DNA of 64,000 nucleotides, taken from Mesaphorura yosii (Eukaryota > Arthropoda > Collembola > Poduromorpha > Tullbergiidae). The position numbers were made by a program, and so were the translations under genes. Under the pieces are notes generated by a model. That model worked only from the letters and a program-made list of their open reading frames with translations. It had not been told where the DNA came from and did not search any database. This document shows positions 34,779 through 58,784 of this stretch, piece after piece. The stretch lies in assembly GCA_009869945.1 (NCBI GenBank), contig WIXG01000321.1, positions 1-64,000 on the forward strand, in the 5' to 3' direction. Numbering within the stretch: the first letter of the stretch is position 1; each line of letters starts with the position of its first letter.

Positions 34779-37700
34779 TCATACTTTTTCGACGAGAGTT
34801 GAGGTTGTGCTGCCTTCCGTTCCTTCGTATGGCACCTGATTATGTGGACTGGAGGAGTTGGGCAGGGAAGAACAGAGCGGGGTCTTTTGCTCTGACAAGT
34901 GGTCGTGGTTGGAGTAGTACTTGTAGCAGCAGTCGTAGTTCGGGGTAACTGGAGGCGTTGGAGGAAGCAGCGCGCCTTGCAGAGCAGAGGGAGCCACGAT
35001 GGAGGCCTTCAGTACCTGACGACGCTGGTGTTTCCTCCTCAGGCGGTATCTGATAACGTAGAGCGACGCTGCGATGGCCAACACGAGCAGGGTGACTGTC
35101 AGAATGATACAGTGCGGTTCCCAAAATCCCCGACTCGAGCTCGAACTAGCACCATGAACATTGTCGTCGTTTGTTGAGGAATCATTCCTGTCCATCTGTA
35201 AGAGATCTGCAAAGCACACGTCAATTCATCAGTAATATGTCAATAGCGAGTCCAGTATCTATCGTCCAGCATGTGGCACTCACCGAGACACGTCGGACAG
35301 CATTCGCCCTTCACAAATGCGGGATTCGCACAGTTTGTTGTCTCTGCTGCACATTTTTGTGTGGGGAAGCACTCAATTTGACCACCGACACAAATACACG
35401 TCCGACACTCGCCAACCTGCACACACAAAAGGCAGAATTAGAGAAAGTTTTCTGCGGAGGCGAAGTGAAAGCAATGCTTATTTCCCAGTCATGCAATGGA
35501 ACGAATTTTCAACTTTTGCTTCAATCATCATCATTACTCAGCTTCTGGGCCGCAATGAAAGGGTTCCACTTTGTCAACCTCTCACACTCATTGACAATGG
35601 ACGTGACAAAAATTCTCCCACTCGCTAAGCCATTCTGGCGAATATTGCTCACCTTCCAGAGTTCCCCACTTTTGTAAATGGTTTGCGTTTCTTGTGCGAG
35701 GCAGTTGAAGTCCGACGTCTGAGTGATTTCACGCTGTTTATTTTCTGGACACGTTGCACAACACTCGCCGTCCTTCACGAGGGTCTGTGCGCGACACGGC
35801 GGAGGAGGTGGACAGTCGGGTCCCGCACAGAGCACTCGGCCCTCGACACAAGTGCAATTGAGACAAGGACCCGATCTCCACGCCGCAGCCTCCGAATGAA
35901 CTCTCCCTCCCAGACTCGCACAGCTCAGCACGCTCGGCGTAGCATTGAATTTCGTTTCATCTGCAACGTAAATCAAATAAGGCGACTGTGCACAGGTTGG
36001 CTTGAAACATTATTGCAAACATTTGTCATACGAAAGTTCGACAGTTGCAACACGCTCACCTTCGCATCGCGGACAGCACTCGCCTGGGGAAAGTGCTGGG
36101 CGCTCGCAGCCAGCTGCGGGACACGAAAGCACCGAACACATTTCGACGCCTCGTCTGCAGACGCAGTGACGGCAGCCGTCGAACCATTCATCATCCGCAG
36201 AGTGCGAGCATCGGGCATGTTGATGAGATGGCCGACTGCCGATGCATTCGCAGACGGCGCAGTCATCTCCGTTAAATGCAAACCCCGAAGAGCATGTTTT
36301 CGAGCAGTTGGCCAGACTAGGGCATTTGTTGCACTCACAGGAGGGGCAGCCGTTGGAGTCCAGCTTTACTCCGTGCTCACAGGTGAGATGTCCGCAATTC
36401 AGCGTGGATGGGCAAGACCAGCTTGACACATCGTCTGCAGAGGATTTGATTAAAACTTATTAAAATTAGCATCGACCACCCGCAATTTTAATGACTTGTA
36501 ACGTTTAACTTGCCTGCTTCCGCATCACAAACAGGGCAGCACTGACCAGGAACAAACCTTGGCTTCAGACAAGTCGTCTTGCACGAAATGGTGTGGCATT
36601 TCTTCCGCCCTTGGCTGCAGACGCAGCTTGTGCAGGAGTCGTCGTCCCAAAACTCTCCTTCGGCGTACCAGCGTCCAGTTTTTGACACACAATCTGCAAT
36701 TATTTAGGAAAATTATCTTCACTAGATCAGCTGCATGCTGCACCATTTTCATTGACTTTTGCTGAGTTACCTGCGCAAGTTGGACAGCACGAATAGGACG
36801 AAGTGTTTGTTGCCGGCTGGGGCTTGATAACTCGACGGCACCCTTTCGGATAATCACACGGGACGGGCATGCAAAACGAAAGCCCATTGTGGCAGGAACA
36901 ACGAGTACAGTCTTCGTGGTGGATCCACGTGTCCCCGGATTTGTACCAACGATTCTCAAATGAACAGTCTTCGGATTCTAAATAGAAGCAACAAGAAATC
37001 AAGTCTTGCTTAATTAATTTCTCTTTCTTTCTTATGACTGCGAACGCACAGTGTGCCAATCGGATCAAAGACTTCAAATTCTCAAATGACTTCTTTTGTG
37101 CTTTCAGTGCTTTGTCTAGGCGGAACTCGATCATGCAAGATGAAAGGCTCGCTCACTCTCTCTTATGAATTCTCATTTCATAAGTTGACATTTTCAAAGA
37201 GCATTTTAGGTTTCCAGCTGTTTTCCAGACGAGAAAAGTTTGTCTTAGATTTCGTGAGCAAAAACAGCAATGAGGAAATGTACGAGCAATTTGCTGGAGA
37301 GTAGAAAAGTTTCCCATTGTGCCTAAACGGATTGAAGTGTTAAGAAAGGAGAAAGTTGTGAGGCAACAGCAATATTCCATCTTTTTATGAACCCATTTGT
37401 CATTCGTGCAGTCAGCCAGTTGCATTCTCCGAGTCGCGCCGGTTTCGCTCTATGGCCCGGAAGTGTTCAAGACATGAGATTAAACACTTAAACAGTGCTT
37501 GATTTATAAGAAATTGCAAGCGCAGGCATTCATTTTATGCATTCGTCGCAATTCTTCACAGGTCCTAATAACAATAATCATGTTAATCACGCCACTCGGA
37601 AATAGTAGATTCACGTGGAAATCTCTTCTTAATGCTTCCGTTCGCCTCTTGCGTGTTTTTGCTGCAATGTTAGCCTTTGAATGTGTCTCGATTCGTCATA

Positions 37701-40263
37701 TCACTGAGATTTGAATGGTGAGTGTCAAGAGCAATCGGGCAATGTGGCAATATGGCCTGGCTGCTCCGTCGCTTTGCATTTCACCGCAAATTGGTTGCAT
37801 TCATTCATTGCATTTTGGCAAGACGCCCTGGAATTTAAATTATTCGGCTCGGCTGTCCAGAGGAAGAAGAGACGGACTGAAGAGTGGGTGAGACGTGAGA
37901 TTGATGCGTGTGATGCTGGCCGTATCCTGTTTCTCTTCCTCCCGCAGCGGGGCAGTGAGGAGAATGCAAGTGTGGGTGCAAAGAATAATAAACAAGTGCA
38001 GTAGGCAAAATATTTGGACGAGCAGTTCATGAATGACATCACAAACTGCAGCATTTGGAACAGACGAGACTCGTCCGTGCCTGCCCACAATTTTCTTATC
38101 AAACCCAAATTCGTGCTAAATGCAAAGTCAACACGAGTTGGCTTTTATGATTTTACGCGCTTACGCTAATTGAATGCGTATTTTTGTGCGCACATGAAAT
38201 CACGCGTCGTTTATAAATTAATCGCGTCCTTGAAAACGTTTCAGTGTGCCAGAGTGCCAGACTGCGTTTTCGTTGGCCCGAATTCACTCCTCCGATTTAA
38301 ATCACGGGTTTCTGGGTCCCACATACGAAATGCTACAGGGAAGCTTGCGCGAAATGTGAAGGAAGTTGTTGGCTTCCGATTTTGGGTGTGGACACATTTC
38401 ACATTCATAATTTGTATGCAAAAGGGCGCAGTTCAAGAACGAAGCTTAATTGATTCCTGAACCGTGCGTCTGGCTTCTTCAAACACAATGCCACAGGCTA
38501 CAGAGCGTGCATTTCTAAAGTAACAATTAACTGGACAACACCCTCCGTCCCTCAACCGCAACCGCCGTGCGTTCGAAACTGTGTGTCCAGCTGAAATTCA
38601 TTTGAATGGAGGGTGTAAATGGAAATTGATGGATGTCAACGTCAGTCTCAATGAAGATGAAGTCCGTGCTGGTTCACCTTAACCAGTTAAGTGCCCGCAA
38701 TTACAGTAATTGCTTCTCACTACTTGCACAGGCCAGTTCAATCTTCATAACAAGTCACACGTGATTGGTGGACTCAAGAATTCACAATTCACAAATCACA
38801 AATTTGACGCTTCAAACGAACTTAACGAACCATTAAAAATAGCATAGCCGCCGACATCCTTCACGTTCACAGGCATCGCGTGTTTATGCTTAGAGTCTTC
38901 CGAGATGCAGCATTCTTCTTGAGCGCGAGCACTCGGACTCGCACTTGGGCTCCTGGCGCCGCCAATAATCTCTTGTGATTAGTGTCGGACTTTTTGAGTG
39001 CATTCCAGAGCAGTGAGACAATCACGGCTCACGAGGTCGGTCACTCATTGTGGAGGATTCCAGCGTTTGTGCCTGCCTTAATTAGACTGCTTGCTTAACC
39101 TTTGTCCTTTCTGAGACGAAGATTAGTGACTCGCTTTACCCCATGACTAGTTTTTTTGCTACGCTGCTGCGGCTGCATCCGTGAATCGAACGAATTCTGC
39201 TCCTGCCCCGTCCGTCCCGTATTTGGACATAATGAGTTGCTCCATCGTCAACATCCGCTAAAAACAACATCAACTCATCGTAAAATCGCAGCAATTCATT
39301 CCTCCCTCTGTCGCGTACGCACTCTTTAATGACTTTACTCTTGAACAACACAAAAAGTGAGTGTAAATAAATCAAACCCATAAAATTACATACAATTTAT
39401 CTGTAATTTGGTTCGAGATCATCATCGCTGCATCGCATCTGAAATGTGCAATGTGCAATCTGCGTTGCGCGTTGTAATTCAAGTCGTCTTTTGTTCCTCC
39501 CAACAAGAATGCATGCTCGAACGCCACTTCAGCATGAACTCTCGAGTGCAGCGATGCTCTCTTCTGCCTGCCTGACTGCCTGTCTGTTACTTGTTGGCAT
39601 TCGGTATTAAGTTATTGAATACGAAATTAGACAAGCTTTTCGAACAGTCAAAACACACTTGGTAAATGTGAGCTCAAGTTTCGTCCATGCAATTCACAAT
39701 TACGACTACGATTTTCAATGCATTGCAATGCAATTCGTCTCACTTTGCCTTTGCAGCCGCAAACTTCGTTCAACTCCGCTTTACGGTTTCACAGACAAAA
39801 GAGTCGATTTCAGAGATTCAAATGCAAATGCGAACGCTTTCCTGCAAGCATAGCAGACAAATCAATCATGACGCATAAGGAGAACGCACACAAGCACTTT
39901 GTGCGTGTTATTCAGCGTGTATTCGTTTGTGCGTAGAGATCTGAATAAATCAGAGTGCGGAAGACGCTTCATAAACTCAAGAAGTTGATCGAACTGCGAG
40001 ATGCTTCACGCTGTGGTTGTGATGCCGAATCGTGATCAAATGCAAATCGTGCGTGCGCGATTGCCTTGCCAAGCTCGCATCTGATTTAAATTGAATCAAT
40101 TATTCACGAGGACACCTTCCAATCAGGAAAGAATCGCGTGGCGTGGCGTACCTTTCGCATGCGCCTGCGTCGTCGATTCTTGCGTCTGCGTCGCTGTCCT
40201 TATTTGACCAGCGCAGACGAGCAGCGTGAAAAAGGGCACAAATAAATTGGAAATTAATTCCAT
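34779..40263 (-). CDS. CRIM1: CRIM1-like type I membrane protein (VWC/antistasin part)
   Basis: Vertebrate CRIM1 is a transmembrane protein that binds BMPs through VWC domains and restrains their processing and delivery. Exons: 40263-40152, 36977-36771, 36693-36514, 36434-36060, 35960-35653, 35416-35284, 35206-34779; phases agree and give 580 aa. Exon 1 encodes a signal peptide (MELISNLFVPFFTLLVCAG) and a Thr/Gln-rich spacer. Then VWC1 (about 38-105), VWC2 (107-166), two antistasin-like repeats (about 172-230), VWC3 (to about 290), VWC4 and VWC5 (292-438), each VWC ending in a CCPxC or CCxTC motif. One membrane helix follows (about 471-491, CIILTVTLLVLAIAASLYV), then a stop-transfer RYRLRRKHQRR and a cytoplasmic tail of nearly 90 residues with PPTPPVTP and Tyr-rich stretches. 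Human CRIM1 has six VWC and four antistasin repeats, and begins with an IGFBP domain that is absent here. The VWC2 exon ends in a GC donor. Confidence 0.88.
36978..40151 (-). other. CRIM1-like membrane gene intron 1 (3,174 nt)
   Basis: Separates the signal-peptide exon (donor AAAG then GTACGC) from VWC1 (acceptor CTATTTAG before AA TCC GAA), phase 1. I searched it on the minus strand for an IGFBP or extra cysteine-repeat exon and saw none. Confidence 0.75.
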
Positions 40264-41052
40264 TTTGGTGATTTCTCTTCTGTGGCTTGTGGCCCGCTTG
40301 GCTTCGGCTCGACTGATTCAATTAGACAATGCTGCACGGACATGAGGACGACAGTCACTTGTGGCTCGGGCTGTTGTTATTTTTGATAAATGATGTTGAT
40401 TGGACGGGACAAACAGGCCAAATCACTTTCCATAAATCATCTCACACAAGGACACATGAAAAGAACAAAACACAGCGCAGTTCCCAGTTCGCAGTGAGTC
40501 AATTCTTCGTTTTGGGAGCTGTGCTCGAGAATGTCATGAAAGGGCAGGCAGGCAGGGAATTTCACCAGTGACAAAAAGTGTTGGCGGAGACTTTCTTTTG
40601 CGTTTTACCGTCTCCGTCCGACTCCGACTTCTTTTTGTGCAAATGTCAAAACCAGACGCACCAGCGAGGCGACGCGACACACAACGCACTTGTTCACCGT
40701 TTCTTAAGCCCGTCGTCTTTCTCCTGCGTCTGTCGCGAATCGGACAGTGTAGAAGTCTCAAGTGGGACAGCCACGCACGCTGCACCCGAAAAGAGTCCAC
40801 CCGTCTTCACATTCTCAAAGATGAGCGCACGCTCATAAACTGCTTCGCATTGAAAAAATCCAAGTGACAAACGAATGATGCTGTCGGGTAGCGTCGTGTG
40901 TTATTGATTTCTCGCTTATCTTATCACTTCACCAAAACACTAAAACACTGACGATATCGATTCGTAATTGGAGCTGCACGCTGCTGCTGCTGGGCGTACG
41001 TCTCGTTGTCTCGTTGGCTTTGCACTCCGACCACAATCGAACAGACGCCAAG

Positions 41053-41060
41053 TATTTATA
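41053..41060 (-). promoter_or_regulatory. Candidate TATA box for the CRIM1-like membrane gene
   Basis: On the minus strand GCGTATAAATACTTGG contains a full TATAAATA, about 790 nt upstream of the signal-peptide ATG at 40263. Transcription starting about 30 nt downstream would give a leader of roughly 760 nt. Position and match are the only evidence. Confidence 0.3.
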
Positions 41061-44000
41061 CGCGTAATGATTTTATGACGATTTGTTCGCTGCGCTGGTT
41101 GCGTTGCTCGATCGCTCACAATGTCTCCTTTCGATTGCACTTGCCTTCTGTTCTCGCGATTAGTTTTATGATCGCTAACATTCTTCGCTCAACTCTTTCT
41201 TTCTACACACACGACTCTTCATCTTTTGATCCATTGTGTGCACTCGTATTGTGAATTTATTGGGATCTCTCCTCTCCTATTAGCACTTGGCCTGGCCACA
41301 GGCAGCCTTCTTCACTGTCGCTGCTTCCACATTCGTTGCACTGCACTTGCTGTTTGCTCACGAGCTAAGCAACTCGTCCGCACTCACGACGACACACGAA
41401 TGCACATTCTCAATTGCTTTTGCTATTCTTGGCGCATTAATGAACTCAATCGAAGCACAACACGACGACCCGCAAACGGCAAATTACTGTGCGAGATGCG
41501 TGGAGGGGATTTACGATCTTTTAATTACGCATTAATGTTCAATTACTTACTAACACACGCACGCACGATTTACAAAACAAACATGCGCCAGGAGCGCAGA
41601 ACCGTGGCCTCACTGAGTTATGAGAACGCATGCTGCGATCGCGACCGTAATGCAAATGTTAATGAGGGCTAATGTGCTCTGCTACGCCACGAGCAGATCG
41701 ATACAATGATGCATAATGGGCCCATAAATCCTCGCTGACTTCATCCCGCTACGCCTCATTGCTCATTGAGCCGCGCGACTCAGATTAGATTACGCAACAG
41801 AGCACAATTGACAATTGAGCGCATTAACGCATTACGCGTCTCGTCGTCGTCGTGCGTTTGTGTCACGTCGTCAGGTGAGAAATGCTGCGACGCAAAGATC
41901 GAAACCAGTTCAGCAAGCAGCCAGCTGCACATGAAAAAGAACTGGGCAGAGAACGACCGCATTCGTTCATCGTTTGTGTCCTCCAAACTCAAATGATCAC
42001 ATTTTTTGTCACTTTATGACTGCCACATTCACGCCATTTCGGCAGTCCATAACTTTTCGCATTTAAAGGATCGTAAAACTGAGTTGGAATGTGGCAGGTT
42101 GAGAGAAGTGCGAATAAACATTTGGACACGTTCCCGGTCATTACGAGCTCAGGCTCAAGCTCATGCTCTTTGCATTCCACAATTATTTATTGTGACCACC
42201 GTGGCTCTTGAATCCCACACTCAATAAAAACCAAATAAATTACGCCAAGATCAGCTGCCATAAAGCAGAGACAAAGTCCGTGTGTCCGTGTGTTGTGCAT
42301 AATTCATTACGACCTCATTATGCACTCAAATAAATTGCTCATAAAATTATTGTTGAAGCTTTCAAATTCATCATCTCCAGCAGAACTCTCTCGCGTCTCG
42401 CGTCTTGCCTCCTTGCTGACTGAGAGTCATCTGTCATGTTTCGTCAGACGACGCGTAAATCGCGAATGTTTATTACGCTCGCGTTTGGTTCTGGCAAGCG
42501 CGACTAGTAAACGAGGAAAATGTGCTGCCTGCTCGTAACCTTGTTTCTTTCTGGTTTGATGCCATCATGCCATCGAGCAGAAGCAGAAACAGTCGTCATT
42601 GCTTCTGCTCCAAGACGTGAATGACACCACATTGCCATTTGCCATCTCCTTCGGCGTTGTTTACTCTTAAACTTTTTACGACCACTCGCCAAAATCAGCG
42701 TCTTCGCATTCGCATTCCGTGTCAGTAAAGACATGAAACCCCAAAATTATGCGAAGATCAACTCAAATTTGCACAGGGCGAAGGCAAGTCGAGATGACTC
42801 GTCGCCGGATGACAAACAGCAGAATCACAGCAGCAGCGTTTACACAATGCGAACAGCTCCAGCAAAGTTAATCACTGCGTAAAGTTATTTTTACAAAGTC
42901 ATTCAGGACGTCTTGAAGTCTTTCAAGTTTACAATGTAAATTCTACGCACCAAAGAAATAGCAATTCAAGCATTCACGACGAGGGAGATTGAAAGCCTGA
43001 ATTTTTGATGGACGAGCACCCTGTCATTTGCCATTGCTCCATTTTGCTCAAGCACCTCATCTGCCATGAGCAAATTTTATTGCATTTGCATAAACCAACA
43101 CTACAAATGGCACATCGTAAAATACGCAATACCCAGAGTCGAATACACAAACATTTACAACGTGCTGCTGTCAAACAATGGCCTTTTATGAGTTCCGATT
43201 GTGCTTGCCTTTCGATGCCTCAGCGGAATTGAAATTTATGTCTGGCCCGAATCCTTTCGGGTGTTCCATTAGCAAAGTAGACCTTCGCATTCGCCGCGCA
43301 TGCACGCGGTACAAAAATGCTATTTTAATTTAAGCGCATAATTTCATTTAAGCACATTTATCCAATTTCGATTCAAATTGACTTGGCTTACAAGCACGAC
43401 ATGAAAAATTACATTTGCTATGAGCTCCGACATTAAAAGCTTACGAGCACAGCGACATTTTTCTACAGAGTCGGTCGGTTTATTTGGGCTCGTTAAGAAT
43501 TTGAGCATTTTTCCGAAATGCGTGCTTACAGAAACGAGGTTTCGCGTGGAGACACAAACGACAAACATGAAACGACTTTCTTCTGAGTACGATGAGCCTG
43601 GAAATTGGTGGCCTGCCTGCTCGGATGCTGAGCTCATGAAAGATGAAATGCAGCGCGTCCGTTTCCATTTCTTTGAAATTAGTCCCCGTGGACTCTTTCG
43701 CACGGCAGCGCAGACCGGAGGAGACGAAGTTGTTCCATCTTTTAGAACAACATAATGACATGGCATTAAACTCGGACGGCAGACTGAGGGAAGCCCATTC
43801 AAGATGAAGGAGCAAGCTGTCAAATTCCTGCGATTCGAGATTCGCCTTTGCGTGGTGACCCACTAAACGACTAAATTCGCATTTCTACATCTCGCCATCA
43901 CTGCACTTGCTCCATTGGCTTCATTTGTAAGGGACTCGGACGTCTGCTCTTTTTGCCCTGCTGTTGCTTTGCTGGTGCTCTGGCTTGGCCTGTTACGCGC

Positions 44001-47000
44001 AACAAATTGCTAAGTAATCCTGCAACACATGTCCACCCTCAACTTTAAACGAAGCAGCACTCACTGATGAATGCCATTAACCAAAGCGGCAAGAATAACA
44101 ACGAAACTTTACAAAAAGCTCGTTGCTGTGCTGTGCTTGCGTATGCAAATTGCTGGGCCGTAATCTTTGGATTTAAAGTTTGCACCCGATAAATGCTTTT
44201 TGAAGTCTAACTTGCGCTGAACTCCTTCGAACGATTCGAGTAGGGGCAGCAGACAGCGCGCTGACAGCGGGCTCCGCTCGCGAGTGCAGCAGACTAAAAC
44301 TTTGGAGTTTGGCTGCGAACAAGAATTTAATTGAATCAGACTTCATGCTACCAGGCCAGGCCAAGCCGTAGGAAGCCATTTCGACATCATTTATCATCTC
44401 GCTCCTCAACCATTACTCAACTTCCAATGCGAAACTTATCATTCATTACTTCGAGCGAAAAGCGGATTGGACAGGCTGTGGAAAGATCGAAACGAGTTTG
44501 CATGAAGCCCATAATCATTGGAACTAAATAATCAGACCGACTTCTCAAGCGTGAACAACGTAGATTTGGTGATTGGACGAAATTGGAAGAGATTTTAAGC
44601 GTGAGTTCACTCCAATTTGACACTTGGACTCGTTCTCCAGCGAAAATCGAGCAAACTTTTGAAGATACGATGGCATAAACACAAATTCGCAGTCGCTTGC
44701 ATTGCTTTCTCCCAGCATGCGCACGTTTCTGAAAGGTGACTCCTTGCAAATGACAGAAATAATTCTCGCGTTATTATTTCCGTTTCGCAGAGCAGAGCAG
44801 ACACACAGAAACGTGGCGCACAATAACGAGATGAGAAATGAAAGCACTCAGACTCCTTATTGCACAAAATATCGCTGCGCTGCTTAAAATTTAACAACGG
44901 AAGAAACAAGTTTAAGAAAGTAGGACGCACACTTGACGTTCAGCTAACAGCCAATTCTAAATCCAACAAAAATGCTGCTTGCTGTCTTGCCGCGCGGGTG
45001 CAGGTTTTCTTGCTCCTCTTCGGTGCTGCATGGCTGATGGCATTACGGAAGGGTTACGGACGAAGATTAAGGAGCTCCCAGCAGAGACATCGCTCTAAGC
45101 CCTTCCCGTCGTTTTCATTTCAAATGGTCCAGAAAACAAATGCAGCAACATCCAACGACATCCGTGTAATACACATTACACTTGTGACTTGCACAACGTC
45201 CGTGGGACATCGACCGGAAGACATGCACGCATTAAGCATCGAGTTTATTGCACATTCCCTGCAATATTCATAACAATGATGACTCTTATTTCATTACGCA
45301 AGCAATTTGACTTTAGCTTTATCACTTGTATGCGTACGCGACTTGAACGAAGAATCCGACTACCTTGCTGCTTGTGCACTCTGAATTCGAAACTTCACAT
45401 GGAATCTAATATCTTGTAATTCGTGATCCCATTGAATTCCACGCCAAAATTTAATTTCTCTACTTTGGCACTTAAATCGGGATGTGGTCTCCGAACTTCT
45501 CCACTTCCCACTGCCGAAAGCGCTTTCTTAACTCGTTCAGTCACGGATTGATCCCAGAAATCGCGACGAACAATCCTGCGGCGGCGAGGCAGAAGTACGG
45601 TCTGGTCAAATCAGCAGTTTAAATTTAAGCGTCATTCCCACAATCAAGTCTGACGTATAATTGGAAGCCGAGAGGCCGACTCCCACGCAGAGCAAAGGCG
45701 CTTGAAACTTATTTTGTGAATTGAGTGTCGTCTGGGGACTCACTCACTCTAATCTTCAATACTTAACTTGTTGGAATTCCAAAGAAAAAGTGGAGAGACT
45801 TTTGTGGTGCGTGCAATCTCCGGCTGCTGCATAGAAATGCCTGCATTTTCTGAAATTAAGCGAAGGTGCACGAAGAGCGAAATAATGGAATCAAAGCTGT
45901 GCTGTGTGCATTTCATTGAGATAAAGGAATTTTTCATGGAGCCGTGCAAAGTGATCCCGAACCGAACATCGCTGTTCGCTGCTCCACGCCCAGAACACGG
46001 ACTAATGTCTTATTCATTTTTCTTCCGACCGAAACTTTTAAGAACTTGGAAACGAAGTAAGTAAGCCACGATAGTCTTCAATCTCGTTCGCTTCTCTGCT
46101 GTCTGTAAGTAGTGCACAGCGAGGAGTATTTATCCCACAGGAATTTCCAAACTAAAGCTCTATTTCACATTTTTACATCTCCACTGCAGCGTGCATGTTT
46201 CCCCATTTCACTTGATACGCTCCGTTCCCTCCACAGCGCCGTATTCATGAACCCAAATTCAGCGCGCAGCAAATTCTTTTGTCTCCACAAAAGTTTAAAC
46301 AACAAAGACCTCATTTCTGAAAAACAACGACGAAATCCAAGCCGAGCCAAGTTTTGTACCCGAAACTCCCGCTGATCCGATGAAGCTATCTCGCGCCTAA
46401 ATCATCTCAACAACTCAAAACGGCCGACTTTCGAGCTTCGATTTTGTGGGGAGATGCTTGATTTCTTAATCGATAATCACGCAAGCACCGACGCTTAAAA
46501 TGCATGAGAATATCTGCACGCAATTCGGGCTGTTCGTACGTGCGTGAAATTGAATTTGTGGAGTCGAGAACACGGCGGAGTTCTTCGCGCGCCCTGAATT
46601 GCAAAAAGTGGAGCATCCTCGCAACCAAAACGCAGATCGCAGAATTTTTATGTTGCAGTTCAAAATTCGATTTTGTTAAATTGTTTCCAGCGACAGTGGC
46701 AAGAATCTCAAAATCTCAATCCTGCCCTTCCGGCCTTGCCATGTTGTTGATTTTATTAAACCGAGGCTAATAAAAGTGGCAATAATTTAAGATGACTCTC
46801 ACTTGATTGAACTAATGAGCAACAAGGAAAGGCTGCGACAAACGCACTCACCTCGGCCCAAACGACAACCATGCAAGCCTTTCGTGTTCCGTTTCCTGCG
46901 CAATTTCTGAAATTGGCTAATTTTGAATAATATTGAACGAGACTTGCCGCAGAAGAGTACGACAAAATCAGACCAGCCAACGTTTTACGTGTGCACTTTC

Positions 47001-47518
47001 AACATGAAAACGACAAGTCGCCTTCCAACGACACGACGCAGATGCGAGTTTCCTTTCATAAGCGGCGCAAGTACGAGTACACAAACATAATTTTGTGGTT
47101 GTCTGTCGAGGCGTAAAAGGCAGGCAGCGCTGTTCACATGTGCAGAATATTTTCGCACTTGCCTCGCAGGGGAATAAATATTCCAGACCCATTCCGAGAG
47201 TCGACATATGTTCGACACTCACATGGCATTTGCACAATCACAAGAAATTGCAATAATATAAAGTAATGATATCATTTCGCACACCGCCCGCCCTCATTTT
47301 GAGTGTTCCACACGGAGCAGGTGAACAGCTGCCGCACTCACAACTCCGCAAACATGGCGAATGGCGGAGGCAGGCGAAAGCAAATGGAAGCCATTGACAG
47401 CACGGAAATGAAATACCGTCATTTTTCATGCTCCTTCGTGGCAGGGCAGGCAAGGTCGGTGGAAGGAGCGTCTCGGTGATAAATGAACTGGACTAATGCG
47501 GTGACGATATGAAGGGCA

Positions 47519-47534
47519 AGCAGGCAGGCAGGCA
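47519..47534. repeat. (GCAG)n-type short tandem repeat
   Basis: A run of GCAGGCAGGCAGGCAA. The same tetranucleotide, or its complement, recurs at 19459, 31842, 39569, 40543, 48348, 51122 and 53594. Confidence 0.75.
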
Positions 47535-48347
47535 AACATTCGTGTAATAATTACATTGTAATTATTTCCGCTTCACGTGAGAAAGCAACGAGAGCAACTA
47601 GCCTGGCTTTGCTCGGGAGAAAGTGCAAACTACAAAGTTTGTAATCTTCTGACTAAAGAGTAAATTGTTTTCCTGCTTGTCTACACATGGAAAGATAATT
47701 ATCGTGTCCCATGAGAGTCCTCCAGAACACTGAGTGTGTGCGCAGTGTGAGCGAGCTGAGTGAAATTCATTCTGCCAAGACTTAAGCCAGCCTAGCCAGC
47801 CTGCTTTGCGTGCTGTTCTTCCAACCTGCTGCAGTCGAGACTCAGCCCGATCAGAGTGCCCATTGCCGTTGCTGTTGCCTCGCTCTGGTTGCATTATGTT
47901 TAATGGCTGTGTAAATAGATAATAGAAATTCACATCTTAACTCACTTTCCAACCATTTCCGGCTTCTTGTCTTGCTTCGCAGCTCACCGCACAACCAAGC
48001 CGGACCAAGTCAGTTGGTCCGAACAAAGGTGAGTAGAGGCGAGGAGGAGAAAGGCAGCAACGGGTTAAAGTTCAGGTTGCCTTCGTGCAATATTAAACAA
48101 TTCGGTCTGGTTCACTTGCTCGGCTGCTTTCTCCACGGCTTTGTACACATGACACACTTCCACGACCCGTTTTCCCGTGCCGTACTTCGTCCTGTTTCAC
48201 GCAGTCGCTGAGCATGCCATTGAATTTTAATGAAAAAATGAAGAATAGAATTTTGTTGATCTTCCGACATGATTGTTATTGTGCTTTGAGGTCTCTCTCA
48301 GCAAACACAAAGCCCGACTCCCTTAAATTAATTCCTGCACAAGAGTC

Positions 48348-48363
48348 CCTGCCTGCCTGCCTG
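48348..48363. repeat. (CCTG)4 short tandem repeat
   Basis: Four CCTG units, the complementary form of the GCAG runs seen elsewhere in the window. Confidence 0.75.
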
Positions 48364-51300
48364 CTCTACTCGAACTGTTTCAAAATTCAAAGGTTTTAGA
48401 ACAATATTTTTCGATCATAACGAAAACAAAACAAGCCCAATGACGATAATACGCCTTTCAATCAAAATGATACGAAAATATTTTTCCTTCTTCCGAGAAA
48501 ACAGGAATTTGATATTAAAAATTCACCCAGACAAAAACGGTAGCAACCTGAAAGTGACAGGCTACAACTTTGACGTTCTTAAGTCGATAGTTCCATGGAA
48601 AATTTTTTCACGAAGGCTGGGAGACTGCTTTTGCCTCTTCTGCAGGACTCAATTCGACCTTTTATCTCATTTGGTATTTGTCCGCAGTCTGTTGCACAGG
48701 TGGACCTTCAATTGCAAAGACCCTGGAGCGATCCTGCAACAGTGCAGCAGCAGTTTTGCTAAGTTCTTGAGAGAATGTTGAATTTGTGTAGAACAAGTTT
48801 TGAGACTTGCTAACCGATTCATTCAATTCAGAGGCCCGAATCTTGCTCGGTTGCTCTCCTCTTCGGCCGCCCTTGCGAATGGAAACGTTTTTCTCTCTTC
48901 AAAGAAAACTTGCAACAAAAGAAGTCGTGCTCTGCCTGCTCTGAATTCAAACGGCTCCTCGCATCCTGCTTGCACTGCTGGCTGCCCTTTGGCTCTTGAT
49001 CTCTCAGCCCAGCTCAAGACTTCATATTTCATTCTTTCGGCGAAGTGATTCGGGTCAAAGATTAATAAAAAGAAGTTTCAGCTCAGAAATCATTTTCTCC
49101 ATTATAATTTCTGTTTGATGATTCCCGGAGAAGTTCGACCAAGCGAACGACTGCGGGAAGCAACCTCATTTCGCCAAATCTGTAAATTGTGATCACTTCA
49201 GCCATTTTGGCCCATAAACTCTGCGCGCACGTGAATTTATTCTTGGGACATGCAAAGCAGGCAATAAATTCGATTTTTGGCTGTGAACATGAGCAGGTAA
49301 AGTAAATAAATTGAGAGGAAGGAGAAATACAATTTGATATCTCGAGGGACGTGACTCCGCCGAGACTTCAGACGCAGGCAACATTCGCCTGGACCATTCA
49401 CGTGTTTGTGTGCCAAAGCTTATTTTTTGAATTAAAGTTTCAAGTGGGAGAAAACTGCAGGAAGAAGAGAAAATTCGTTTTTGATAAGAAAAGTGAACAC
49501 ACAACCAACAACTTTCTCAGAATTTCAAGATAAAGTCGTTTGCGCGTTGCTATTCGGGGAAGATGCTCCTCTTGCGCAATGCGAGGCTCGTGTTTGCAGA
49601 TTCAAACACCATTTCTGCAATTTTATTTCGCACACGGCCCGGAGAGTCTCCCGTCACTTTGTTGCGCCTTTCGCGAAACTCACCTGTCTTCTTGCCTACT
49701 TTGGCTGCAAACGCGCACATGAATGTGAACGACCCAATTTAACATTCGTCATCGTCCATCCTGCACAGTTTCATCGTTCGAGGTGTTTGTGAGAAGGTAA
49801 TGGAGCAAAACGAGTGTCCACCTGAGGCTTGGCTTCACCTCTTTCCCACTCACGCTCACGTCGTCAATCGGGCCATTTGCCATTCCATCACTTTCGGGGG
49901 TTAAGTGATTTCCTGTGTGTGGTGCACGGCGTCTAAAATTAATTTACCACACGGACACGGTTCAGCGGACTCAAATATTGAATTTGAGGGAATGTGCCGC
50001 ATAGTTTGCCCAACCCAGTCAAAAAGCCACAAACGGCCAACACTCGCACGCACACAACTTCTTGCATTAAACCGAAATGCATGAGCTTCCTGTTCCGTTG
50101 TGCTGCGCACTTTGTCATGTGAGTGTGTGGAGTCATGAAATTAATTATTTAATTAAATTTCCCGTGTATTATCATAAACACGGTCTCGCAGCGCCTGGAA
50201 TGCTGCAGGCTGTAGGATGCTTCGAGTCCCAAAGTAGCGTGATTCCTAAGAACCGGTGGTTCCCATGTGGTTTGGAAGCATGTTCTCGCAGTAATTTGAT
50301 TCGAGAAGGCAATAGGCTCAATTTCTCATCCACTCTTGGAATTCTAATTAAACATGTGGAACCTTTGCTGCGTGTTTTCGGTCACCAAACCTCAGTGCCT
50401 AATCAGTTTAACTGCGCAAGTCACAAATTGCAGTAAAACACTGGCAGAATCCTTTTAAGTCCGTGTAGCTCTTCTTAGAAAGCAATTAATGCAAAGGTTT
50501 GCACGATTTATGCTGCAAATAATTGAGGACGAAATGGCAAATGAAACTTTAAACGACGGCATTTCGCTGTCTAATCCCTAACGAGACTTTAAACTGTTAC
50601 GTTTTAATTGTCGTCATAACCGTTTCAGAAATTCTGATGTGCAGCATCGGCCAATGGCGAGTCAGCATCTGCTGTTCTGAAACTCGGCGAGTGTGGCAAA
50701 CGAGTAGAGTAAATGAAAACCAGAACGCAAGTGTCATACCTTCGACTTGTGCAAATACTCTGAAAGTTTTGTTTTACGGATTAATTTCTATGCAGATTAT
50801 TAACTGAAATATTTCTCTCTGAAATGCGACCACGCGTGATGACGATCCTCTCACCAAACTTGCCAAGCAAAAATATTCGCTCGAGAGAGAGGTTCATTCC
50901 ACAAGAAATGTTGCGAGCCATGCATCCAAGCAGAGTTGTAGAAAACTTGCCTTAATTGTAATTCCACAAAGTCTCTCAAATTGGACAACTTTTGTGCGTG
51001 TTCTCTGCACTGCTTCTTCTTCTGTCCTTTTTTAATTTAGCGCGGTGCGGTGCGGAGCAGAGAAACTGAAACATCAAACACGTAGGCTGGCTGGGCTTGT
51101 CATGTCGGAGGGCAAGAAGAAGGCAGGCAGGCACGTGCTCGAGAAAATTAAGACGGGAGAGTTTGAAATATTATTTGAGTAAGAGATATCGCATTTGATT
51201 TAGAAATCCAAACTGACTGGGAAACTGGCTGAAATATTGCAGAGATGTAAATTATGCGTGCGTAAATTGCATATTTTACAAGACGAAACAGAAATTCAAA

Positions 51301-51757
51301 TGGGGCCTAATTAAGTTCATCTGTATTCCCAAGAACATTCCCAAAGCCAGAATTTTGAGCATTTCACTTAGAAATGCTCAGCCAACCAAATTCAGCCTTC
51401 AGCTCGACTTGCAAGGAAGAATATTAAGCACAAGCTAGTTTCTTTGATTCATCATCATCTCTAGTCGGCTTGTCTGCGAGGAAGATTTATGATTAACGTG
51501 ATAGTGTCAACATTTCAGTCGGAGATTTGAAGTTAAAGTCTGGAGAGTTGGACGAATGAAATTAATTGCAAGGCAATGCCGTTACTGACTGACTGAGTGG
51601 AGTAATTTAAAATAAGCGATACTGACAACAATCGTGTGACAACGACACGACAATAAATGCTTCAGTCTGCAGTCTGCATTTTTTCAAGGCATATTTTGCG
51701 TGTACGTCCATTACACTCGTATAACTGCGCTCCGTTAACCAGAGCGAGTGGAATTGG

Positions 51758-51777
51758 GCGCGCGCGCGAGAGAGAGA
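51758..51777. repeat. (GC)5(GA)4 compound dinucleotide repeat
   Basis: GCGCGCGCGC runs directly into GAGAGAGA in non-coding DNA about 1.1 kb upstream of the plus-strand CRIM1-like gene. GA tracts can bind GAGA-type factors in arthropods, but nothing else supports that here. Confidence 0.7.
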
Positions 51778-52900
51778 AAGCCAACATCCAACTTTCTCTG
51801 AGCAGTAAACATATGCGAGGACGCGAGTGGCGGAGTGAGCCAGTGAGCGGAGGAAACTTTTGTGCGAGGAGACAAAGAGACAAGTAAATAAGTTTGGGAT
51901 TAAAAAGAATTTATAATAAAGTATGCTTAATCCCGCTGTGCCTGCTCTTCTCTGTAGATGCAAATGAGTCTTTATTCGCGAGACAAGAAGACGAATGAGT
52001 TCTGCCTTTTTGTGTGTAAATCTCTCGCAATGACTTAACACTTCTCCTCACAACTCCTCCACGCCAGGACTAAACGCACTTAATTAACTCGAGCACGGGT
52101 TCGTACTCGGAACATTTTACTTATTTACAATCTATTTCGTTCTCGTCCTGCAGAGTTCTTAATCCTCGCACATTTGCACATTTGTAAACTTCGCAAAAGT
52201 ATTTATTCGAAAGTATGCGCATTGTCTTGCGAGAAGGGCGGGCTCGCCTTCATCAATTCGCAGCTTCTGGAGATCAACTCGCCCTTCTTCGACCTAAGTC
52301 TCATTATATGCTTCGAAGGAGGAATGCAGTCGTGTTTCTGGATTAAGTCTGTTATTAAATTCTGCACAAGTCCAAAGTATTTGCCATTTCCGTGAGAAAC
52401 TGGAACATGGTCATAAAGCAGAGTTTAGAAGAATTTTATTTCTCAGAAAGCGTGATGTATGAAATGAAGACTCTCATAATTTGGCTGTTGGCTCGATTCG
52501 GACTCACGCAGCGCAGCCAGCCGAGACGTGAGTCTGGAGAACAAAACAGAAGTGCTGCGCCAGCAAGTCCAAAGAATGCGTGAAATGAGGAAGAGAAGCA
52601 TTCCCTCGAACCAAAGCACGGAGAACGTGTTCAGAGAAAGTGAGCCCACTGACGGGCTCTCCGGTGCAGAGCTGAGCTGGTGATCATTGCTGCACTCTGC
52701 GATGCCAGGCGCCTGGTAGAATCTCCGGATATTTCACTTTGTACTTTCCCCAACTTTCTCTCAGTTCGCTTCACACTTCCTCACAATCAACATTTCAGAT
52801 TTGCTCTCCAGTAGCGTTCAAGAATTTAGCAACTCGATCCTCCAAATAGAAAGTCCGAACTGTGTTTTCACGTGCGTTTGATGTCCAGACAGCATTCGCA

Positions 52901-55900
52901 ATGAGTCGTACGAGCGCGAGTCGAAGTGAGTTGCGAGTGTGGTTGACTCTGACTTTCATTTTGTGGCAGTTTGTGCTCGGAGTTTCGAACCAGGAAATTG
53001 CGAGAGACAACTCGCCGAGTGGCGGCATGAGTTGTGTTTGCGACGGCAATTGCGAGCGCGTTGCTGAGTCGGAGTGTCCGTGGGGGCTGACGCTGGACGT
53101 TTGTGGCTGCTGCCTCGCGTGTGCCCGCGGAGAAAACGAGCCGTGCGGGGGCGCACTCGGCAACTGCGCTGCGGGACTCAATTGTCAACTTGAAGGAAGT
53201 GCGAGTGAGAAAACGGGCACCTGCACAAGTAAGCACTCTCGGCCAACGCTTAATTTAATTTTCCGCGTTTAGGCTTACAGCGCGAGCGGTTGGAATGACA
53301 CGGCAGTCAACCACTGAACACATTTGAGCATTGAGCAGGATGCTGGCAATAAAAGTAAAGTTTTATTCGTTCGCAAATTGAAAACCCACAAATGAACAAT
53401 AACCTCTGTTTGTGTTATTAATACCGAAACTTCACAAGTGCGTGCAAGCCAGGAGCAACTTTTGTGCGATGTCATTACAGTCAAGCGAGTCTCGAACTGG
53501 AGCGAGTCTAAACTAATGAAAAGTTTCGACGAGTTCAAACAGAAATCGTGGTTATTGTGTTTAAAGCGAATCGCTGTGAAGACACTCCAAAACCTGCCTG
53601 CCTGACTAACTTTTCTAATTTTTGTTGTTGGTTTGCAGAAAGCGCGGAGAAATGTTCAGCGGGGGCTGAGAAGTTTGGTTGCGGAGTGGAATCCGGTAAA
53701 TGCACTTGCCGAGTCTGGTCAGGATGCTCAAACGGCCAGCCATTCGCTCTCTTCGAGTCGGAAGATGATTGTAAATCTCGTATTGCCTTTTTATTAACTC
53801 AGAATCAAGACACACACACAAATCCAAGTTCATCAGTCAGAATCCCATCGACCAGACATAAAGGTCAGTCTCTTCTCTTCTCTTCTCGTGTGCGCGGCCT
53901 GAGAGTTAATCAAGTTAGTTTACCTCAAAAGAAAAGAAGTACAAGACAAGAAGACAGATTTCTGTGCTCTGCCAGCGTGAAGACAGCATCCGGGCATTTG
54001 ATACTCATAAGCGCGAGATGTGGTGAGGCGCGTCCCGAGAGATTCGATTATTACTCGCGAGTCAGTCAAAATAGAAATGGGAAAGTCGGCAGTCGGCAGC
54101 CAGACACCTTTTCACTTTATAAAATGTTCATTTTCCAAATTTCGATTTTCTCCTCGATTCTTCATCTCAGAAATCCCCAGCAAGACAAAAGCTCGGCCAC
54201 GGAGATCCGCAAATCGCGTTTCTCATTTTTCCTGATCCACACGAAGCGAGTCGCAAAGTTGCGAGACGAAGAACAGCGAGGCTTTTACTTTGAGGAAGGT
54301 TTTGTTCTCCTGAGATTCGGAAACATGTTATCTCCAGCATTTATTTACCTCCACTCACACTCTCTTCTGCGAACTGCAAGTGAACATCTTCCACGTGTGC
54401 TGTGCTCGACGCGAGTTGTGGCTAGGGCACGACTGCTCGAGCACGTTCGCGTGGTTTGGGAGCATAAAAGACATCTGCTTGCTTCGGCGCCTGAGTCCGG
54501 ATAATCCGGGAAATATCCTACGTGATTATGAGCAAGCCTTCATTCCGCCACGGCTCTGATAATTGAAATTGGATTCTAACGTGTGCTGCTATGCGAGAGC
54601 AGAATTCTGTTTCGGATCGCAGAAATTCAATGGCAACGGCAAATTACGGGTCAAGGCACACGTGAATGAGTCGAGTGTCGTGATGCAAGCATTTAATATT
54701 AGCACACCATTAATTATTGCAAGCCAGCGGCTTGATTAAAATTGACTTGACTCAAAATGACACGCTTATGACAAAATACAATGAATTTTATCATTCGTCA
54801 GAATGCAGAATTCGAGAACCGCAGTTCGCAAGGCTCAGGGTTGAAATCGCTAAGCCAGGTTGTGAGTTGGAGAGGTATTTGATGGCACATGAAAGAGAAT
54901 GTGAATGACCACGTAATGTTTATCCATTTCTTGGATTTTTGTATTCAGACTGAAGATTGTCCGACCGAAACTCCATTTTCAATAACAATAAAAGACTGGT
55001 ATTGCATTCATTGCGCGATGGCATGATTCGAAACATTAGCCTCAGCCGAGCTCTTTTGGAATTCTTCCTTGCATTTCGCATTCTGGAATGACGATTCCTC
55101 GACATCTTCGCCATGATGACTGCAATAAGCATTTATTAATTCAGAATTGCTTGCGCAGAAAGCAGTTTGGCCGAGCGTGGAATCGACGAGCTTCTCAATG
55201 CGTGCTTTTCTGCTTTTCGCCGAATTGACAATTTGGCGAGATGATTTCCTTCCTTGGAATGCGTCTGTTTGAGAGTCCACTCGGTTTAAGTGCGTAAATC
55301 AAGTGAAAAGGACACGAGGCATTCTGAACTTAAAAGCCCAGTGATTTTGTTCCATTTTTACAAGTGAACTCTTCTTTTTGGTTGTGAAATGAAAGCACTG
55401 CTGACTTGTGGATTTACTGCTGACTTTCCTTTACTTGATTCTTAGTGAGTTGGTAAGCCCAAAATGCGTCCGAGTCTTGTTTCAGTGATCTCGTTGCAGT
55501 CGTGTGGGATTAATCGGACCAGTTCCACTCGCCTCCTCCAACAAAGTAAAGTTTAAAGCATGTTGAGTGATCGCGCACTGCCTCTGCTCGTAAAAATGAA
55601 TAAGACATTATCTCTGCCCAGACACACTCAACGCCAAGAACCACTTTCGTCGCTCTCGGGCCCTCTTCTCTTGACTTGGAGAGCAGCTTCGAGTGGGCTG
55701 GAGAAATTCTTGCACGCCCGCGCGGTGAAAACAACAGAAATATAATGGTTTCTCGCCACACACGGCCGAGGCGACATGAGAGTCGTCGTTTAGGTTTCTT
55801 CATCTTATTAGTGAGTCCCCAGATGCCACTAAAAGAGAGATGGCCACACAAAAATGCAAATGTCACAACACTCGACCGAATTTATTGTGAAGGTGTTTCA

Positions 55901-58784
55901 TCGGCCCAACTCAAAACTCTGCGTCACATAAAACTGCAACTCGCCACGCCACAGCGCTATACTGCGAATCATCAATCCGCGTGCTAGATTGTCGTGTAAT
56001 GAATTGCTCCAGTCAAAAGACCCTCAGCGATGTGAGCCTGAGTGCAAAATCCTGTTCTGTGTGCAAATTAATAACGAATCCGTATCACAACAAAAACGGA
56101 ATCGTGGCTCGTGTCAGAAGAAACGCGAAATGAGTGAGTGAGTGTGATTTGATTGATGACGAGTGGGTTTCCATCTTGGCGTGACGATGAATCAGACACC
56201 CATGCACGGCAGGGCTCGAGAACTCTGCGGCTGCGGTGGGGGAAGAGAATGACTTCTTGTTCTCGCACATATTCAGGCCCAAATCATTGATTCGTGTAAT
56301 TTGATTGGTTGTTTGATTCAGCGTCGGTGGTCGGATTGTGTGTTTGCTTTGGGTGGCTCAGTTTCAAATTGTTTCAGTGCTCATTTGCGCTTTGGCTTTT
56401 GCACCGTGACGGGGAGACTCTGCACGAGTTCAAGTGCGGACCTGATCACCCTGTGAAACCTTAGCTCCAAAGACCAAAAGCCAAAAGCCAAGAGTCAAAA
56501 TCGAACTTACTTTCACCTGGCATGGCATGGCAGTTTGCAGACTTCCATTTGGCGTTTGCTTTGTTGTGTTCTCTTCTGCTGTTCTGTTCTTCATCATTGT
56601 CTCACTCCAGGCCATTATTAGCTTCAATTCAACTAGCTCGAAATCCGAAACCTTCCATTTGCTCTGCATTTGCACGGGTGGCAGTAATAAAGAACGCTTC
56701 AAGCCGAGCTGCTCGCTTTCATTCTAATTTCGAACAATGCAGGCCGGGACTGGATCAATGGAGACAGGGCTCGGGCTAATGCAAACCGCCTCGACTTTGT
56801 AATTTGATCTGCTCTGTTCAAACTGCCGAATACTCCTGTGCTCTCTGCTTTGTGTGAATTCAGATTCGGATGTCAGTTGTTTCGTGTCTCATAAAATTAT
56901 AGTCACAACACAGAACGAGGTCATCATTCTCTTGCCAGACTCGGTTTGCATATTTTTCAGTGTTTGTCGCACATTTGAACGCAAACTGGTGCTCTGCCAC
57001 TGCTGTGACTCAGCCATTTCGAGGCCGCAGATCCGCTGCATATCTGCCTGAGAGGCAGTCATAAATATCTCGCGAGGTAGAACCGGGCTGGGCCAGGCCG
57101 CTCTGGCGAGTGAGATGATCCCGGCGCCTTTGTTGCCCAAATAAAATATTTAGACGATCCAAATAACTTTCCCAACCAGTCAGGCAGAGTCTTCTTATGA
57201 AGGTGACAAATTGCATGCAGCCCGAAACGTGCGCCATTTGTCTCTCCCAGGAGCTCGTTCATGCGAGGACTCGGCGGCCAAGCGTCTATTCTCCGGTTTC
57301 CAGTCTGCCGTGCGAGTGATTTGTGGCTTTTCATACGATATGAGTGTCTCGTGGCAGGCACCAGCCACATGCGATTGTTTATTCATAACCACAAACAAAA
57401 ATATAACCGACAAAAGTACAAAACATGGAAATTGGAGCTTTCTCACACTGCTTCCACAAATCAGAGAAACTTAGCGGTGGATTTTTCCAACGTGGAATCA
57501 GAATAGTTTGCGAGTCGTCTAATGAGTGATTAAACACAGGCCAAGTTAACGGTAGAAACTTTTTGGAGCCACCAAACTTTGACTCCGCGCAAATTGTGGA
57601 ATGATAACACGTAAGAAAGGCGAGACGGAGAAAGTTTTGCCATAAATTCATTAGAGTTCATTATTATTGAATGAAATTACTCACTCTGACTCGGAAGAAC
57701 GAGATTGTGAGTCCAAACTTGCAAACAAATGTGGTCGTAATGATGATTGAGCATTGTTGTGCAGGCGCAATGCAAAACACACTCCTGCCTGCCTTGCGGA
57801 CGTCTGCAAAGTCACGTAATTAATACAAATGCGTCGTGGAATGAGATTTCCACTTCAACTCGCAACTCCAATTTGGAAGTCGAAACTTTTTCGACTTCTT
57901 TGGAGTGTTACGTGCACGAGGAACAGGTAATTGATTTGGAGAAATGTGTCAATGGAAATGTGAGCCCGTTTGACGAATGTGGGTGACGAGTTTATTTACG
58001 ACTCGGGCCGAGCGCCGGAGAAAGTAAACCACAAGCACGGAGAATGCCAAGTTGAGAGACTTCTCACAGGATGAATGAGGAAATATAGAAATATTGAGAA
58101 GGCCGCTGGGAACAATGCCAAACTGTTAAGAATGCATCTCGTCCCATTTGCCTATGCGGCCTGCGTCTTGTGAGATACGCGATGCGAGTCGAGCAGTCGA
58201 GCATCTGCAACTCTCCAGACAGATCATTTTGCATTCGCTCAAGAATTCATGGAGACTCTGGCGTACTTTCGGCGCTGGCATGAATTCAAATTAGATTTAT
58301 GCTCTGACGGAGAAAGAGAAAGATGATGGTGGAGAAAGTCAGTCAGTGGGATTCGAAATGCGACACCGTCTCGCGCTTTCGTTTGAGTGACACTAATTGC
58401 GATGCGCGCGTTGTCTTCTTCTTCGTACTCGCGATACTCGCAGATCTTCATCTACAGTCTCATCTGATCGTGTCTTCTCTTGCAGGCCACGCGCAGGCGG
58501 AAGCGGAGGAGGACGACGACGAGGACGAGTGCGAGGGGGTCAAGTGCGACGAGGCGCTGGAGTGTCCCGCAGACAGCCACCCGAGCCCTCGACTCGTCCA
58601 GGGCCCAGGACCGCGACTCCGCAGCGGCTGCTGCCCTTCGTTGGGCGAGCTGTGCCAGTGCAACCCGCCAAGTGCCTGCCCCCAGCCCACCTGCCCCTTC
58701 GGATCGACCCTCAGACTCCTCCACAAGGCGACCAACAGCCCGGGAAACTGCTGCCCAGTTTTCAGCTGCGAAACTGACGACTAA
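52901..58784 (+). CDS. CRIM1: Secreted CRIM1 N-terminus-like protein (IGFBP domain plus cysteine repeat)
   Basis: Three exons: 52901-53228, 53639-53770, 58486-58784; all joints phase 1, giving 252 aa. A hydrophobic signal peptide (core LTLTFILWQFVLGV, about 15-28) precedes an IGFBP domain (about 45-109) with the diagnostic DVCGCCLAC and PCGGALGNC. Exon 2 (about 110-153) encodes the short segment that follows the IGFBP domain in CRIM1 (KCTCRVWSGC). The exon 2/3 splice rebuilds a Cys (T|GC). Exon 3 begins with an acidic run (EAEEDDDEDE), then one atypical CRIM1 repeat with GCCP, CQCNPPSACPQPTCPFGS and NCCPVFSCE. It ends in TAA, with no donor before it and no membrane helix, so the product should be secreted. 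Vertebrate CRIM1 has two such repeats here, then VWC domains. The ATG at 52901 is the only one in frame before the signal core. A TTTCAG at about 52793-52798 could be a 5' UTR acceptor. Confidence 0.86.
53771..58485 (+). other. Intron 2 of the secreted CRIM1-like gene (4,715 nt)
   Basis: Donor GTAAAT after GAT GAT T and acceptor TTCTCTTGCAG before GC CAC GCG. The open frame that runs through the start of this intron to 54504 loses all cysteine pattern after the donor. No further exon is seen inside. Confidence 0.8.

Follow-up and report, generated by a model that had tools for sequence, protein, structure and literature searches.

The window analysed here comprises the first 64,000 bases (C321:1-64000) of an 89,159-base contig, C321, from an assembly of 93 Mb in 1,127 contigs. 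On this contig, the modules of CRIM1 appear to be spread over three adjoining genes: gene A on the minus strand and gene B on the plus strand, both within the window, and gene C, on the plus strand, beyond its end. CRIM1, which regulates growth factors at the vertebrate cell surface, is a single membrane protein that couples a domain of the insulin/IGF-binding type with VWC domains like those that bind BMPs. All splice junctions in the three genes are predicted; each model keeps to one frame, and one GC donor apart, the splice sites are standard. Sites were scored with a matrix of generic animal frequencies that we chose.

Gene models on the two strands

Gene A (34779-40263, minus strand) has a spliced model of seven exons that stays in one frame and encodes 580 residues. 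As in the preliminary description, the model and its Pfam matches comprise a signal peptide, VWC1 and VWC2, two antistasin repeats, VWC3 to VWC5, a transmembrane (TM) helix and a cytoplasmic tail, here of 90 residues; the outer coordinates given there for genes A and B are also those of our models. Exon 1 (40152-40263), the predicted signal-peptide exon, ends in a phase-1 donor and is followed by VWC1 (exon 2, 36771-36977, phase 1-1), VWC2 (exon 3, 36514-36693, phase 1-1, with a GC donor), both antistasin repeats with VWC3 (exon 4, 36060-36434), VWC4 with the beginning of VWC5 (exon 5, 35653-35960), the remainder of VWC5 (exon 6, 35284-35416, by itself below Pfam's cut-off), and the TM helix and tail, which were read directly (exon 7, 34779-35206). 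Pfam marks five VWC stretches (E 1.4e-31) and two antistasin stretches (E 9.8e-9). The introns are in phase 1 throughout, except for the phase-0 intron between exons 5 and 6, and the splice sites are canonical save for the donor of the GC-AG intron after VWC2 (GCAG/GCAAGT, window position 36514, minus strand), which scores 8.7 in our matrix. VWC domains both before and after antistasin repeats, followed by a TM helix and a tail, were found in gene A only.

A scan of both strands of 80 kb for signal-peptide exons, which had to open with ATG, encode a hydrophobic core and end in a phase-1 donor, returned 11 candidates, some of them nested ATGs of one exon. Two candidates lie upstream of gene A VWC1; the better one, at 40263, has the second strongest core of the 11. 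Because a core score of at least 2.5, the class of this exon, occurs in 15% of 300 Markov sequences of its region, the signal-peptide exon of gene A counts as moderate evidence only.

Gene B (52901-58784, plus strand) encodes a signal peptide, an IGFBP domain, a short GKCxC module and one CRIM1 repeat, and ends in TAA. The signal peptide, IGFBP domain, single repeat and stop had been recognized before, whereas the GKCxC module between the IGFBP domain and the repeat had been missed. Exon 1 (52901-53228) carries the signal peptide and the IGFBP domain with its CGCCLAC motif (E 1.6e-6 in Pfam and, at 29.1 bits, just over the cut-off of 28), exon 2 (53639-53863) the GKCxC module, and exon 3 (58486-58784) the CRIM1 N-terminal repeat and the stop. 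A candidate end of exon 2 at 53770 (donor score -0.2) was displaced by the preferred donor at 53863 (AAAG/GTCAGT, 4.4); exon 2 probably ends there, giving a protein of 283 residues.

We compared the modules of gene B with human CRIM1 in shuffles that keep the cysteine positions. The score of the IGFBP domain was matched in 0 of 2,000 shuffles and that of the exon 2 module (GCGVESGKCTCRVWSGCSN..., aligned with human GCNIINGKCECNTIRTCSN...) in 1 of 2,000. For the gene B repeat, 0 of 2,000 shuffles reached the score against either of two human repeats, and the fit was closer, by a small margin, to human repeat 2 (z 6.3, compared with z 5.4 for repeat 1). The human sequence used is a provisional one, and these figures are to be read as a lead. 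On this evidence, gene B would be the N-terminal half of CRIM1, beyond a mere IGFBP protein, and an N-terminal IGFBP domain followed by a CRIM1-specific repeat, as judged by the provisional human sequence, was found in gene B only.

Gene B also resembles the arthropod single IGFBP-domain (SIBD) proteins, in that it is predicted to be secreted (its translation begins with a signal peptide) and has one IGFBP domain, in which CGCCLAC corresponds to the CGCCxxC motif described for IGFBPs (in a passage of PMC7866140). It differs from a single-domain SIBD protein in carrying two further cysteine-rich modules of CRIM1 type. Its matches to PDB sequences were weak: the best was boophilin, a non-IGFBP protein (E 0.016), and SIBD-1 (3zxb) was matched at E 0.018. 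The predicted structure of the CRIM1 repeat alone had a mean pLDDT of 57.7, and a Foldseek search of this model against the PDB returned one meaningless match (E 9.5).

The end of gene B bears on whether its chain could continue into VWC1. Between 58486 and 58850 there are 14 GT dinucleotides, four of them in phase for the VWC1 acceptor, with scores of -9.7, -2.1, -8.5 and -1.5; two of these four fall past the gene B stop, and no in-phase GT donor ahead of the stop scores above 0. The same matrix gives 4.0 and 4.4 for the donors of exons 1 and 2. Because gene A uses a GC donor, we also scored the GC sites of exon 3: 21 of 34 GC dinucleotides are in phase and two score above 0, at 58645 (2.7, as high as the gene C exon 1 donor at 2.5) and 58531 (1.1). 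Both were rejected as donors, as they would halve or remove the CRIM1 repeat. An AATAAA lies 176 bases past the stop. Given the lack of a good in-phase GT, the damage that either GC site would do to the repeat and the AATAAA that follows, this form probably does end at the TAA. If the block between A and B were inverted in the assembly, a possibility raised in the preliminary description, the complete gene B repeat would still not read into gene A, and turning the block round would not be enough to recover an entire CRIM1 chain.

All CRIM1 modules in one chain were thus not found: by prediction, gene B lies on the plus strand and gene A on the minus strand, and neither counts as a full CRIM1, each being a CRIM1 half. 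Read in series, B then A yield IGFBP, GKCxC, CRIM1 repeat, VWC, antistasin, VWC, TM and tail, which is the order of vertebrate CRIM1. That the two genes jointly carry this order, as was first proposed, therefore holds, with the gene B modules CRIM1-like in the shuffle tests against the provisional human sequence. Relative to the human domain counts given in a passage of PMC11922885, there are two antistasin repeats rather than four and five VWC domains rather than six. Further differences from human CRIM1 are the single CRIM1 repeat instead of two and the distribution over two or three genes, with VWC1-2 and the TM helix occurring again in gene C.

Gene C came from a genome-wide VWC search, which gave a match at C321:66836-66970 (plus strand), 2.8 kb past the end of the window. 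Genes A and B do meet without overlapping, as had been noted, but the account of two genes is incomplete, because this third gene repeats VWC1-VWC2-TM. Gene C (C321:65540-67171, plus strand) is predicted to encode 210 residues with a signal peptide, VWC1-2, a TM helix and a short tail, in exons 65540-65615, 66543-66743 (VWC1) and 66816-67171 (VWC2, TM and tail). Its VWC1/VWC2 intron is 72 bases long; a 217-codon open frame at 66518-67168 was rejected as a single exon, as it contains this intron, which is homologous in position to the VWC1/VWC2 intron of gene A. The sole signal-peptide candidate between the gene B stop and gene C VWC1 is 65540-65615 (MSALLLCLALLLVSRPASTEQASRD). Because its core is the strongest of the 11 candidates in 80 kb and belongs to a class occurring in only 0.67% of 300 Markov sequences, gene C probably starts at 65540. 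Exon 2 of gene B, ending at the 53863 donor, is in frame with the VWC1 exon of gene C, and it may splice to that exon, skipping exon 3, so that B and C would be one gene. The same skip from the 53770 donor was discarded, the junction with gene C VWC1 then reading TGA.

Relationship between genes A and C

Genes A and C share 26 of 64 residues in VWC1 and 28 of 55 in VWC2. We compared these domains within a set of 22 VWC modules, made up of 14 of the 27 genome matches, gene C VWC1, one further BMPER-like module and six provisional human modules; the 13 matches left out were all below the cut-off (four on C131, five on C41, and C101:2098, C196, C21 and C200:19310). In this set, the VWC1 domains of A and C are mutual best matches, scoring 148 where the runner-up of each reaches 108. 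The same is true of the VWC2 domains, which score 164.5; the runner-up has 131.5 for the domain of C and 141.5 for that of A. FastTree support was 0.917 for the A-C pair of VWC1 and only 0.081 for that of VWC2. Because VWC3 alone among the VWC domains of gene A paired with its provisional human counterpart (0.968), and gene A VWC1 and human VWC1 did not group, the VWC numbering of gene A follows order and not a one-to-one tree.

Several further features are common to the two genes. The VWC1/VWC2 intron has the same position and phase in both, and both VWC1 domains have an extra stretch ahead of CCPxC (ATNTSSYSCCPTC and ATNASCCPVC). A tblastn search with the gene A protein on the 80-kb stretch of the contig placed VWC1-2 on gene C at E 2e-26, a value obtained without low-complexity or composition correction. 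For the cytoplasmic tails (LRR...LKAS...PP), the score was reached in 10 of 2,000 shuffles, and for TM and tail together in 4 of 2,000. In both genes, the predicted signal-peptide exon joins VWC1 through a phase-1 intron. Between these two exons there is little likeness (the score was reached in 76 of 5,000 shuffles, and for the linker alone in 198 of 5,000), which makes an independent gain possible. At the DNA level, the best match between the region of gene A and that of genes B and C, beyond 200 bases common to both stretches, was 19 bases long (E 0.006), and none among the matches listed exceeded 33 bases.

CRIM1 modules elsewhere in the genome

We searched the 93 Mb with IGFBP, VWC and antistasin profiles, exon by exon and with only the best candidates scored, a procedure that a very divergent or unassembled gene could escape. 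IGFBP gave two matches at E <= 0.001, one in gene B and one at C169:158749-158898, of which only gene B was over the cut-off. The C169 match, below Pfam's cut-off, has CTCC in place of CGCC and looks like a secreted protein of a single domain; against the provisional human CRIM1 it fits more poorly than gene B (14 of 2,000 shuffles, z 2.8), and no VWC or antistasin match was detected on its contig. C169 is more likely than gene B to hold the SIBD-like gene. For VWC, 27 matches were obtained at E <= 1, with 12 over the cut-off, and for antistasin five at E <= 1, with four over the cut-off, two on C321 and two on C253.

A second set of CRIM1 parts was not seen in this exon-wise search. With two IGFBP exons in all, and with neither VWC nor antistasin on the C169 contig, no second full-length CRIM1 is visible, which answers a check set out in the preliminary description; a complete CRIM1 elsewhere was accordingly set aside after the IGFBP, antistasin and VWC searches. 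The antistasin matches on C253 belong to a gene whose motifs look like those of WAP/thyroglobulin/Kunitz modules. A 518-codon frame at C431:3247-4800 (minus strand), in which several VWC domains run into GDPHYRSFDG, resembles BMPER/Crossveinless-2 in that motif.

History of the locus and possible working

We favour, with a probability of about 0.6, a reading in which the CRIM1 modules lie in three separate genes with the history and working proposed below. Gene B would encode the N-terminal half as a secreted protein (an IGFBP domain, the GKCxC module and a single CRIM1 repeat), gene A a type I membrane protein holding the remaining modules (five VWC domains, two antistasin repeats, TM and tail), and gene C a smaller membrane-bound paralogue of A (VWC1, VWC2, TM and a short tail). 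A single inversion that simply divided one gene into two, as first suggested, fits A and B but fails to account for C, a plus-strand VWC1-2/TM paralogue downstream of B. With gene C present, the locus reads as a partitioned and partly duplicated CRIM1, not simply as one gene cut in two; and because A and C each start with their own signal-peptide exon, joined in phase 1 to VWC1, both a separation of the VWC half and a duplication would be needed.

The order of these events is suggested by what A and C share. Both have the series signal peptide, phase 1, VWC1, phase 1, VWC2, together with the TM helix, and the VWC half therefore probably stood alone before it was copied. In the history that we propose, the N-terminal half would first have parted from the VWC half, which gained a signal-peptide exon of its own; an inverted copy of the VWC half would then have been placed beyond B; and this copy, gene C, would have lost everything between VWC2 and the TM helix. 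That VWC2 and TM share a single exon in gene C is as expected once the intervening part had been deleted. An inversion with staggered breaks that duplicated VWC1-2 only is less likely, since the TM helix and tail of C also resemble those of A. Alternatively, the whole of CRIM1 may have been duplicated head to head, after which A lost its front and the other copy lost its middle and broke in two. The arrangement of B then C, on the same strand and in the order of CRIM1, would fit such a head-to-head duplication, but it would also arise by chance with odds of about one in four.

A related explanation, which we hold to be doubtful, is that B and C are a single gene, a shortened second CRIM1 lying head to head with A after an inverted CRIM1 duplication and complementary loss of modules. 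Exon 3 of gene B would then be an alternative last exon, yielding a soluble IGFBP-GKCxC-repeat form, and its skipping would yield a membrane form of 369 residues (IGFBP-GKCxC-VWC1-VWC2-TM). The exons follow one another on a single strand as in CRIM1, the 53863 donor of exon 2 would be in frame with either exon 3 or gene C VWC1, and four isoforms of human CRIM1 are reported (in a passage of PMC11922885). Against a single gene, a strong signal-peptide exon specific to C begins at 65540, the 53770 donor makes TGA at the junction, and an intron of 12.7 kb would be needed.

No fission would be needed if this lineage had kept the N-terminal and VWC parts as two neighbouring genes from the start and their fusion took place on the way to vertebrates. 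This is improbable in our view: A and C both begin with a signal peptide, phase 1 and VWC1, and the separate state may thus predate the A-C duplication, yet the module order of gene B and the fit of its end to the start of A and C look like the halves of one chain. An error of assembly, in which an inverted block at 40-59 kb hides a single CRIM1 gene with B truly upstream of A on the minus strand, is more improbable still, for although exon 2 of B (53863 donor, phase 1) is in frame with the VWC1 acceptor of A, the last exon of B contains a stop, ahead of which no in-phase GT donor scores above 0 and the usable GC sites are weak and would sacrifice all or part of the repeat, a signal-peptide exon is predicted for A, the first 80 kb of the contig contain no Ns and the stretch from 33.5 to 64 kb no inverted repeat of at least 30 bases (exact seeds of 14), and gene C is left unexplained.

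Under the three-gene reading, two activities linked in cis in CRIM1 would be uncoupled here, or coupled in trans. By analogy with what is reported for CRIM1 and Drosophila Crimpy, A and C would bind BMP-type ligands through their VWC domains, on the cell surface or along the secretory pathway, and B would be a diffusible IGFBP-like binder, which may bind insulin-like ligands, or A or C in trans. The prediction of binding in trans draws on vertebrate CRIM1, in which the N-terminal region, including the IGFBP-like domain, is described as sufficient for CRIM1-CRIM1 complex formation (in a passage of PMC3299674). The same passage ties the proposed BMP antagonism of CRIM1 to its VWC repeats and names the Caenorhabditis elegans homologue crm-1 as a suggested enhancer of BMP signalling (PMC3299674). 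Reports on BMP roles in the family are mixed, however: in the chick neural tube, CRIM1 did not suffice to alter BMP-dependent ventral patterning (PMC3299674), and crm-1 was the sole pathway member to fail the sma-9 suppression test (in a passage of PMC4433240). It is possible, but we think it unlikely, that the locus is a three-gene set, perhaps under shared control, in which B, a secreted subunit, can join either of two membrane BMP binders, the long A or the short C, in trans in place of N-terminal self-association, and insulin/IGF-like and BMP control can be mixed by expression. If the modules do lie in separate adjoining genes, each part of CRIM1 could be removed singly, and the N-terminal half would prove able to work as a free secreted protein.

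Among invertebrate proteins related to CRIM1, the Drosophila protein Crimpy is a single-pass protein, and gene C, a predicted single-pass membrane protein with a signal peptide and CRIM1-type cysteine-rich domains, may be comparable to it on this general description. Crimpy (Cmpy) is described as a Crim1 homologue (PMC4177838), as binding the BMP Gbb (PMC4177838, PMC7397595, PMC10847725) and as having a released ectodomain (PMC7397595), in passages of these sources. Among the papers listed for the terms used in one open-access collection, none dealt with a split CRIM1 or with the architecture of invertebrate CRIM1 genes.

Other coding features were seen around the three genes. A minus-strand frame at 8751-9608 of the window, without a Pfam match, ends in a motif that looks like TM helix 1 of a class A GPCR. 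A weak BRCT match lies in a frame at 23730-24389 (minus strand), and the frame at 23089-23763, which has no Pfam match, looks like its continuation, suggesting an intron. Directly downstream of gene A is a PP2C phosphatase in a single frame (32728-33738, minus strand; Pfam E 1.2e-54), and to the right of gene C is a PX-domain exon, sorting nexin-like, at C321:68495-68776 (minus strand).
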